In this document: positions 10,538 to 51,381 of the stretch, piece after piece
Layout of the letters: every line of letters begins with the position of its first letter
Position numbering within the stretch: position 1 is the first letter of the stretch
NCBI GenBank assembly: GCA_944325635.1
Contig: CALVBD010000002.1
Span: 62,001-126,000 of the forward strand
Direction: 5' to 3'
Length of the DNA stretch: 64,000 nt
Source: Candidatus Gastranaerophilales bacterium
GTDB lineage: Bacteria > Cyanobacteriota > Vampirovibrionia > Gastranaerophilales > Gastranaerophilaceae
Made by a program: the position numbers and the translations under genes
Notes under the pieces: model-generated
Databases searched by the model: none
The model's input: the letters and a program-made list of their open reading frames with translations, nothing else
Told to the model about the DNA's origin: nothing

Positions 10538-10766
10538 AAAAACCTCTTTCAGCTCTATTATAACATGGATTTTTAAATGTTTAAGTATCGAAAAAGAGGT
10601 GGGAAGGCAACACTGGATTAATAGGGACAAGATTGTTAATTTTTGGTTAAAAAAATACGTTTTTTTGAAAAACGGGTAAATAATATAAGTGTGGTTGATG
10701 AGAGCCATAAAAAAGATAAGTTGACTCGGCAGACCGGTTAGATAGAAACTGAAAGGAGTGTTGAGT

Positions 10767-11222
10767 ATGAGATTTTTAGTAAAGAAAGCACCGGACAATT
10801 TTATAAAATCGGTTAATGATGAAATTAATTCAATATTAAGCAGACATTTTGATAATTACTATCCTGATTACGGATTTGAGGAAGATGTAGATAAACTGTC
10901 AATGCCTGTAGAAATTACGGAAAAGGAAAAGGATTATGAGGTACGTGCAGAACTTCCGGGCGTAAAGAAAGAGGATTTGGATATTGATATTGAGAAGAAT
11001 TCAATAACAATAAACGCTAAGAAAGAAGAAGAATCCAAAGAGGATGCAAAAGGTTATAAAAAATCCGAATTCAGATACGGCGAATTTTCAAGAACGGTAT
11101 ATTTCCCTCAGGAGATTGATATTGATAAGGCAGAAGCAAAACTTGAACACGGCGTATTAAAAATTCACGCACCGAAACGTTATGCGGAAAAAGAATCAGT
11201 TAAGAAATTGACTGTTAAATAA
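10767..11222 (+). CDS. Small heat-shock protein, Hsp20 family
   Basis: 151 residues with an alpha-crystallin domain (about 45-140): MPVEITEKEKDYEVRAELPGVKKEDLDIDIEKN, then the FSRTVYFPQEID strand and GVLKIHAPK, the conserved GxLxIxxPK ending. ATP-independent holdase chaperone. Start chosen at the ATG with AAGGAG 10 nt upstream. No CIRCE element was seen. A strong terminator follows. A second Hsp20 is at 15919. Confidence 0.92.
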   Translation: MRFLVKKAPDNFIKSVNDEINSILSRHFDNYYPDYGFEEDVDKLSMPVEITEKEKDYEVRAELPGVKKEDLDIDIEKNSITINAKKEEESKEDAKGYKKSEFRYGEFSRTVYFPQEIDIDKAEAKLEHGVLKIHAPKRYAEKESVKKLTVK

Positions 11223-14845: not shown

Positions 14846-14919
14846 ATTTTTATTGTAAATCAAAAAGGTTGAAATAGAACAGAAAATAGTTTATAATTTA
14901 TATACAGGAGGATAAAAGT

Positions 14920-15727
14920 ATGAAAACTATTGATATGACTGGATTTACGGGGGGGGGGGCAGCCTGATTTAAAGCTTAAGTGTGCATTTACTCTCGCCGA
15001 AGTATTAATTACGCTGGGGATTATAGGTATAGTTGCGGCAATGACACTGCCGTCCTTAATTCAGAAAAATCACGATAAAGAGATAATCGTGAGAGTTCGG
15101 AAGCTTTATTCGGATATAAGTAACGCTGCAATGAAAGCTCAGGCGGATTCCGGCGTTATTGGCGATAATTCTGTTTTATTCAATCCTAACCAGACGCATG
15201 CGGAAACCGCAAAAAAGTTGGTCAAGTATTTTAACGGGGCAAAGTTTTGCCAAAGTTCAAATCAGAAAGGTTGTTATAATTATTACTATGATATAAAGTA
15301 TGCACAATTTTACACAAACGATGCTTCCACAGGTGGAAAATGGACTGCTGGTGATGGGTGGCTTCCTGCTATAATTCTGAACAACGGCGGAATAGTTTAT
15401 GTGCATCAGCGCAACAACCCTGATTGTTATGCTGAAGAAAGTTATACCGTAAGAGATGAGTATGGTTATCCGATTTTGGACGAAAACGGTAAGGAGCAGG
15501 TGAGGACAAGTTATGTCAGTATATGCTCGGTTATAACTTTTGATGTAAATGGAAAGAAATTGCCCAACAGATTTGGTCAAGATGTGCAACAGGTTATTAT
15601 ATATAAAGATAAGATAACTCCAAGCTATCAAAAACATACCGGGAGTGAAAGCATAAAGGGCATTCTTTCAGGAAGCGATAAATTCATATACAGCGACTAT
15701 TCTGTCGGGGCTGAACAGGGCAAATAA
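14920..15727 (+). CDS. Type IV pilin-like protein, out of frame at an 11-G tract (putatively phase-variable)
   Basis: ATG at 14920 follows AGGAGG at good spacing and starts MKTIDMTGFTGGG; the 11-G run at 14949-14959 then leads to TGA at 14965. Reading 10 Gs instead joins it in frame to QPDLKLKCA, then FTLAEVLITLGIIGIVAAMT, the prepilin cleavage and hydrophobic helix with Glu5, and a globular part to 15727 (~268 residues in all, with Cys pairs such as KFCQSSNQKGC). No alternative start lies between the G tract and the pilin helix. As assembled the gene would be off. Whether this is slippage-based switching or an assembly error is not decidable here. A twin locus lies at 50483. Confidence 0.75.
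14949..14959 (+). repeat. 11-nt poly-G tract
   Basis: Eleven consecutive Gs in the 5' coding part of the pilin gene, in an AT-rich region. The count decides the frame: 10 (or 7, 13) opens it, 11 closes it. Confidence 0.9.
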
Positions 15728-15918: not shown

Positions 15919-16407
15919 TTATTCTTCATCGTCTTTGATTTCGAGGACTTTTTTGGTATTTGTTTCAATCTGTTGTTTTGGAATTGTGATTGTTAGAATT
16001 CCGTCTTTGTATTTAGCTTTTGCCTCATCAGTTTTAACAGGCTGGTCAAAAGATATTGTTCTGACGTATTTACCATAACGAAATTCACTTGTTTGATATC
16101 GTTCATTTTTTTCTTCTTCTTTCTTTTCTTCTTTTTCTTCGTGAGTTTCGGCGGTAATTGTCATGAAATCATTATCAAGTTCAATGTTAATATTATCTTT
16201 TTTAATACCAGGGAGCTGGACTTTTACTTTGTAATTTGCATCATTTTGTTTGACTTCAATTGCAGGGCGCCAGACAGATGCTTTTTTAATATTTAGCGGA
16301 TTTGCAAAAGCATTTGTGAGGAAAGTGTCTCTGAGGAAATTATTCAATTCCTGATGAATGCTGTCGAAGTATAGCTCCGGTTCTCTAATCATTATATCGT
16401 TTTTCAT
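15919..16407 (-). CDS. Small heat-shock protein, Hsp20 family (second copy)
   Basis: 162 residues; alpha-crystallin domain about 48-150 (WRPAIEVKQNDANYKVKVQLPGIKKDNINIEL, YGKYVRTISFDQPV, KYKDGILTITIPK). A highly charged Glu/Lys insertion (EEKEEKKEEEKNE, ~93-105) sits between two strands and is not present in the paralogue at 10767. Cytoplasmic holdase. AAGGAAT lies upstream of the ATG at a long distance. Confidence 0.92.
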   Translation of the reverse strand: MKNDIMIREPELYFDSIHQELNNFLRDTFLTNAFANPLNIKKASVWRPAIEVKQNDANYKVKVQLPGIKKDNINIELDNDFMTITAETHEEKEEKKEEEKNERYQTSEFRYGKYVRTISFDQPVKTDEAKAKYKDGILTITIPKQQIETNTKKVLEIKDDEE

Positions 16408-50431: not shown

Positions 50432-50482
50432 ACTTGAAATATTAATACATATAGTATATAATTAATAAAAAAGGAGGAAGTT

Positions 50483-51286
50483 ATGAAAACTATTGCTATG
50501 ACTGAGTTTACGGGGGGGGGGGCAGCATAGTTTCCTCTCAGGGAAAAGCTTTAAAGGATATTCTGGATTTACATTAGCGGAAGTTCTGATTACATTGGGG
50601 ATAATAGGCATCGTTGCAGCAATGACATTACCTGCATTAATCCAGAAGAATAACAACAGAGTTGTTGAGACACGTCTGATGAAATTTTATTCTGCAATAA
50701 ATCAAGCAATATTGATGGCGGAAAAAGATTACGGAGATAAAAAATATTGGTATGAAGATCTTGCAGGTGCAGAAATAGATAAGGACGGAAATGTTGTTCC
50801 CGGAAGTTCTCAGCAAGAAAAATGGTTTAGAAAATATCTTGCCCCGTATTTAAAAATAACTAAAATAGAAACTGTAACATCTGGTTCTCCGAAAGGATCG
50901 CTGATTGTTTATTTTGCCGATGGAAGTGCTTTAAGGCCAAGAAGAGCTGATTTTCTACCCGCGATTGGGATTTTTATCCTGGAAATGTAGATAAGTGCCT
51001 AAAACAACTTGAAAATTCATCAGCATACAGAGATGTAGGCGGTAAATGTGCATTTGCCTTTAATTTTAATCCGTCAAATAGTAGTTCTAGCTGGAAATAT
51101 CATTATAATAAAGGTTTTGAACCATATAAATTTAACTGGGACGGAAGCATCGAGATAATTTATAACGATAGTCAATATGGCTGTAATTCTACTAATAGCA
51201 GCAGTTGGCGGCAATACTGCACGGCAATAATCCAGATGAACGGCTGGAAAATACCTGATGATTACCCGTATAAAGTTAGTTATTAA
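50483..51286 (+). pseudogene. Second poly-G type IV pilin-like gene, with an additional internal frameshift
   Basis: ATG with AAGGAGG upstream begins MKTIAMTEFTGGG, the twin of the gene at 14920. The 11-G run (50512-50522) leads to TAG at 50528; 10 Gs would continue QHSFLSGKSFKGYSG then FTLAEVLITLGIIGIVAAMT. A second break lies between about 50951 and 50985: the frame ends at 50990, while another frame reads on as RDWDFYPGNVDKCLKQLE to TAA at 51286, with the Cys-rich C-terminal part of a pilin. So restoring the G tract alone gives a truncated product. Either a decayed gene or a two-point switch. Confidence 0.75.
50512..50522 (+). repeat. 11-nt poly-G tract
   Basis: Same length, codon position and surrounding sequence (TTTAC before, CAGC after) as the tract at 14949-14959. 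Confidence 0.9.
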
Positions 51287-51381
51287 TGTTAACATAGTCT
51301 TGCTTATTGGAGATGTTTATTCTAAAATTTTGCTATAAGCCCTGTTGCGGGTGTTTAGGAATGACTAGCTAAGGAGATACT

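Follow-up and report, generated by a model that had tools for sequence, protein, structure and literature searches.

The window analyzed here is a stretch of 64,000 nucleotides from the genome of a Candidatus Gastranaerophilales bacterium. Its host belongs to the Candidatus Gastranaerophilales/Melainabacteria lineage, a group of gut bacteria closely related to Cyanobacteria but not photosynthetic, which agrees with the Melainabacteria-like organism proposed by a first-pass annotation made from the letters alone. That annotation had also described a pilin-like gene interrupted by a run of Gs, and its reading was exact: AGGAGG precedes an ATG at 14920, 11 Gs occupy 14949-14959, and a stop is reached six codons on (Table 1). 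Codon 10 of the leader is ACG, the G of which is the first of the 11, and GCA GCC TGA lies downstream of the tract, with the stop at 14964-14966. The homopolymer is situated within the coding region, and its length sets the frame. With 10 Gs, the frame reads MKTIDMTGFTGGGQPDLKLKCAFTLAEVLITLGIIG... and its stop ends at 15727; on removal of one G, reading continues as QPDLKLKCAFTLAEVLITLGIIG... without interruption to 15727, as had been claimed. The accompanying statement that no alternative start exists was borne out as well, in that no ATG, GTG, or TTG was found in the prepilin frame from the tract to 15041, a position already beyond the start of the hydrophobic helix. A start codon downstream of the tract was thus rejected, and because there is no start between tract and pilin, prepilin expression needs slippage.

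The prepilin identity assumed at the outset is upheld by TIGR02532, which scores 21.3 bits against a cut-off of 16.3; PF07963 falls just under its own cut-off (20.9 versus 21.2). A prepilin-type cleavage/methylation motif, the conserved E at +5, and a hydrophobic helix are all present in FTLAEVLITLGIIG. A search of the window for runs of at least nine Gs gave six overlapping matches, where shuffles predict 0.05, and these matches derive from two G11 tracts. The second tract follows a leader nearly identical to that at 14920. In this copy, which starts at 50483, there is an extra frame break near 50960, with the remaining protein in another frame to 51287; it is either a decaying copy or affected by a sequencing error. 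A tblastn search of the prepilin against 50,697 phage records yielded no match, on which basis a phage origin was rejected, and IMG/VR contained no match to the leader pattern. Hsp20-type small heat-shock-like genes closely flank the pilin locus at 14920 (10758-11222 and 15919-16407), and a tRNA-Ile is the sole tRNA within the window.

Table 1. Features of the two tract-bearing prepilin loci of the window
Feature	Position	Strand	Basis
Sigma-70-like promoter, TTGAAA-17-TATAAT	14869..14897	+	Agrees with the consensus at 11 of 12 positions; the second copy has an identical one
Shine-Dalgarno sequence, AGGAGG	14906..14911	+	Sequence
Leader ORF as sequenced, MKTIDMTGFTGGGAA*	14920..14966	+	Sequence
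G11 slippage tract, longer by one G than the prepilin frame requires	14949..14959	+	Sequence; G-run count
Prepilin frame, QPDLKLKCA / FTLAEVLITLGIIG..., open from tract to stop	14960..15727	+	TIGR02532 prepilin N terminus
Promoter of second copy, TTGAAA-17-TATAAT	50434..50462	+	Sequence
Second leader ORF, MKTIAMTEFTGGGAA*	50483..50529	+	Sequence
Second G11 tract, likewise one G too many	50512..50522	+	Sequence; G-run count
Second prepilin	50523..51287	+	155 open codons from tract to 50990, then a further frame break

In the source genome (G000; 2.01 Mb in 13 contigs), the leader TTTACGGGGGG is present at 13 loci, every one of them in the leader family of the 14920 locus (12 with G11 and one with G12), and the reversed pattern, used as a control over the whole genome, does not occur. 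Altogether, the genome contains 51 runs of nine or more Gs, 34 of which have exactly 11. A prepilin frame lies directly 3' of the tract and open to it at 39 of the 51 runs, and the tracts upstream of prepilin genes comprise 10 to 12 Gs. The majority of these 39 genes have their own -10 box, a Shine-Dalgarno sequence, and a leader of 9-11 codons. Of 35 strict tract-type genes, 31 have a TATAAT no more than 60 nt from the ATG, against a background of 0.05 per 55 nt. From such signals, the tract-type prepilin genes look like separate promoter-leader-gene units. We counted 92 prepilin-type N termini in this genome, of which ~40, about two in five, carry a tract and the others are ordinary; a prediction from this is that standard annotation overlooks or truncates ~40 prepilin genes. 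Two damaged copies were noted, L084, which lacks the ATG, and one copy of L095, which has an internal stop. The nearest relatives of the 14920 prepilin, at 53-54% identity (L166-L168), have a normal start. Homologs with a nonrepetitive leader had been named by the first-pass annotation as a finding that would speak against its idea; they do exist, but they do not refute the idea because one genome carries both kinds.

We scored the frame of strict genes, defined by a Shine-Dalgarno sequence, an ATG, and a prepilin in the open frame after the tract. Genes with one G too many, in the other wrong frame, and in frame numbered 27, 6, and 2 in the source genome, 23, 6, and 2 in G007, 14, 3, and 2 in G012, and 18, 1, and 1 in G010 (record CAOJDT). 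Pooled over these four species of the genus, the 105 prepilin genes divide into 82 with one G too many, 16 in the other wrong frame, and 7 in frame. Genes in the ON state are far fewer than the one-third expected (P = 7e-11), and one G too many is strongly preferred over the other wrong frame (P = 7e-12); as the loci are related, both P values overstate independence. Six loci of CATLFB all have one G too many and G12, as do three ATG-started prepilin loci of CALVAS.

Tract length covaries with the flanking frame, so that 10, 11, or 12 Gs are found as the frame demands. For required values of n modulo 3 of 0, 1, and 2, the tracts of G007 have 10, 11, and 12 Gs at 6 of 9, 10 of 13, and 7 of 9 loci, respectively. 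Shuffling the lengths among loci abolished this fit (P < 5e-5 in G007, 0.0025 in G012, and 0.0019 in G000, values that are not independent because paralogs share ancestry). The same phase is arrived at through differing flanks and lengths. Leaders of 33, 34, and 35 nt precede G12, G11, and G10 with a G/A difference at the tract edge, and between the flanks "G11 CAAGTAG" and "G10 CAAGGTAG" the tract is altered while the total phase is constant. In the one-too-many frame, a stop typically follows one codon past the tract, and in the other wrong frame the stop comes later. A usual, though not defining, hallmark of phase variation, namely that ON and OFF states are both common and no offset is fixed, was not observed in the prepilin tracts of the genus, and a near-uniform offset of one G too long is not predicted by independent ON/OFF switching alone. 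The ON/OFF pilin control suggested by the first-pass annotation stands with respect to a prepilin that requires slippage, but that proposal missed the scale (39 genes, family-wide) and the regular offset.

Among 286 genomes sampled from the order, 102 contain the architecture of a Shine-Dalgarno sequence, ATG, short leader, and G10. It was found in 101 of ~264 sampled genomes within the family, compared with 1 of 22 in other families, and in 22 of 50 genera; reversed-pattern controls were near zero in nearly all sampled genomes. Named matches are mainly metagenome-assembled genomes labelled Candidatus Gastranaerophilales or Melainabacteria. The leaders differ completely from genus to genus. 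Considering tracts of at least 10 Gs only, prepilin loci are mostly one G short in genera g7 and g20 (12 and 7 loci, respectively), mostly one too many in g9, and of mixed offset in g3, with about one-third in frame.

Comparison of tract length in related genomes, as advocated by the first-pass annotation, showed that it varies between related species. In G007 and G012 (~85-95% flank identity), the majority of orthologous tracts differ by 1-2 Gs; many keep the frame through compensating changes in the flanks, and some flip between ON and OFF. L209 has G11 and is OFF, whereas its ortholog L276, with the same leader, has G12 and is ON, and the pairs L240/L300 and L213/L292 likewise differ in length and have a flipped frame. 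L323 (G10) is 96% identical to L084 (G11), the copy in the source genome that lacks the ATG. For prepilin ORFs that are OFF in both species (L244/L284, L239/L311, L237/L208, and L263/L282), dN/dS is 0.14-0.31. Out-of-frame prepilin ORFs are thus under purifying selection, which argues that they are in use.

Of 22 tracts located amid long genes in this genus, 13 are in frame and the rest are off in both directions, as opposed to 7 of 105 prepilin tracts in frame (Fisher P = 1e-7). Tract-bearing genes other than those for prepilins include members of glycosyltransferase families 6 (GT6) and 17 (GT17), a Stealth protein, and the FkbM methyltransferase and RgpF families. GT6 orthologs flip from OFF with G14 (L261) to ON with G13 (L272), and tract length and frame differ between relatives in the GT17 pair L227/L309. 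Such flips are probably ordinary phase variation. Poly-G tracts occur in sugar-related or similar genes at L261/L272, L227/L309, L091, L280, L074, and L062 (GT6, GT17, Stealth, FkbM, RgpF, and DUF6492), and these genes probably form a second, more conventional phase-variable set in the genus. The tandem paralogs L105 (G000:C1:29971 and 30947) have G11 and G10 at one conserved site inside a long gene; one is in frame and the other is out.

Taken together, the data probably reflect a prepilin repertoire that is OFF by default and switched by slippage, most plausibly through phase variation by slippage in replication. Each locus looks like a stand-alone unit of promoter, Shine-Dalgarno sequence, translated leader of 9-11 codons, G10-G12 tract, short cleaved pre-sequence, and type IV-type prepilin. 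As stored, it has one G too many in the tract, and ribosomes would stop a few codons on without making pilin. Strand slippage during replication that removes one G, or adds two, would join the leader to the prepilin in a heritable ON state, and reverse slippage would turn the gene OFF again. With ~40 genes mostly OFF, a clonal population would display few pilins at once, in changing combinations. We infer that switching takes place within a population and acts on the DNA, and that these genes encode pilins of the cell surface. The excess of tracts with one G too many could have arisen because a stable ON state is selected against while slippage is biased toward contraction, because activation in one easy step is selected for, or because slippage in transcription renders this phase productive as it stands. 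In a toy simulation, selection against ON plus slippage could keep many tracts one G above the ON length (ON+1), and the ON share mostly stayed under 8%; the runs started at ON+1 and some settings drifted elsewhere, and they are illustrative only. Several observations count against this interpretation. Simple symmetric phase variation does not predict the preference for one extra G, and the offset differs in the genera g7, g20, and g3. MutS1 and MutL, which should lower replication slippage, were found in the genus, and their presence led us to reject the idea that slippage is caused by lost mismatch repair.

It is possible, though a good deal less probable, that the G tracts are fixed recoding elements subject to programmed transcriptional slippage. 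DNA length would then be stable, RNA polymerase would slip on the G run so that some mRNAs lose a G, and the paralogous repertoire would be decoded at the mRNA level into a low, noisy pilin mixture in every cell, with expression constantly low or noisy instead of heritably switched. Both a conserved out-of-frame offset and a downstream ORF under selection, as looked for in such a case, are found here: the one-too-many phase is held over lengths of 10, 11, and 12 via compensating flanks, and ORFs out of frame in both species compared are under purifying selection. The immediate stop in the default frame, the presence of MutS/MutL, and the position of the tract very early in the transcript also fit. 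Against it, tract lengths change among close relatives and frames flip, including to uninterrupted ON, the offset is different or mixed in other genera, and the slippage motifs known in bacteria usually consist of A or T (PMC3711429). We rejected an RNA stem-loop that stimulates slippage, as folds are no more stable than those of shuffles.

An alternative shift at translation, by programmed +1 ribosomal frameshifting on GGG-G codons into the prepilin frame, has very little probability even though the shift needed is indeed +1 and a zero-frame stop is nearby. GGGG suffices for +1 and 10-12 Gs are unneeded, the run begins at all three codon positions (leaders of 29, 30, and 33-35) with the same offset, and the stop does not adjoin the slip site. 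We also consider it quite unlikely that the pattern stems from sequencing or assembly artefacts or from decaying pseudogenes. Homopolymer lengths are hard to call, one G tract annotated in Bifidobacterium did not match the distribution actually present (PMC9187656), and damaged copies exist (L084, one L095 copy, and the second copy in the window). By contrast, the same phase recurs in several independently assembled genomes, and dN/dS is well below 1. The in-frame rate of the mid-gene tracts argues against a general one-base miscall behind the prepilin pattern, and a systematic miscall was rejected for this reason. Assembly gaps (N) lie inside G tracts at L430, L431, and L436-L438 (G058), and in G007, G012, and CAOJDT many tracts lie no more than ~300 nt from a contig end; this is to be expected if tract lengths are mixed or common leaders break the assembly graph.

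Phase-variable genes with poly-G tracts are known from Neisseria (pilC, porA) and Campylobacter, where slipped-strand mispairing controls surface structures. The G runs of Gastranaerophilales are of similar length. Those genes are commonly both ON and OFF, however, whereas the prepilins described here are overwhelmingly OFF with one defined offset; it is the mid-gene sugar-enzyme tracts of the genus that resemble the classical pattern. The prepilin set would, to our knowledge, be among the largest repertoires under slippage control within a single gene family. The closest known case is that of the sortase-dependent pili of Bifidobacterium. In the loci bbr_0113 and bbr_1889 of Bifidobacterium breve UCC2003, G10/G11 follows a short first ORF, and slippage of -1+3n, tested experimentally, restores the pilin gene; the ON length amounted to ~3% in culture at one locus (PMC9187656). 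Both systems are from gut bacteria, B. breve being a commensal, and both combine a short translated first ORF, a 5' coding G10/G11 tract, a second ORF without an active start, and fusion by -1+3n. In B. breve, slippage was measured and pilus-like structures were seen in in-frame strains. The B. breve pilins are sortase pilins that head gene clusters, at one or two loci per genome, unlike the ~40 type IV-type prepilins with their own promoter-like sites that extend across an uncultured family with MutS/MutL. Programmed transcriptional slippage has been discussed or cited for Shigella mxiE, dnaX in some species, and IS elements (PMC3711429). There, too, a conserved out-of-frame homopolymer joins two ORFs, but these are usually A/T runs in single genes or IS elements with a stable DNA length, as opposed to G runs in dozens of paralogs with a DNA length that varies between relatives.

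The principle is already known, and what is new is the lineage, the type IV-type prepilin class, the number per genome, and the flank-tuned offset. In a literature search confined largely to freely accessible papers, we found no description of phase variation in Gastranaerophilales or Melainabacteria. Existing metagenome reads make it possible to ask whether the pilins shown by a cell are set by a single altered base in the DNA or by slippage at the mRNA level. Two further arrangements were observed. An out-of-frame G17 lies at the 5' end of a gene for a repeat-rich, exported-looking protein of 497 amino acids with a signal-like segment (L059, G000:C1:99926). At L085 and at L446-L465 (the latter from genus g3), apparent dispersed repeats are translated as part of the segment that separates the G tract from the prepilin cleavage site, and they extend a pre-sequence that would be cleaved off.
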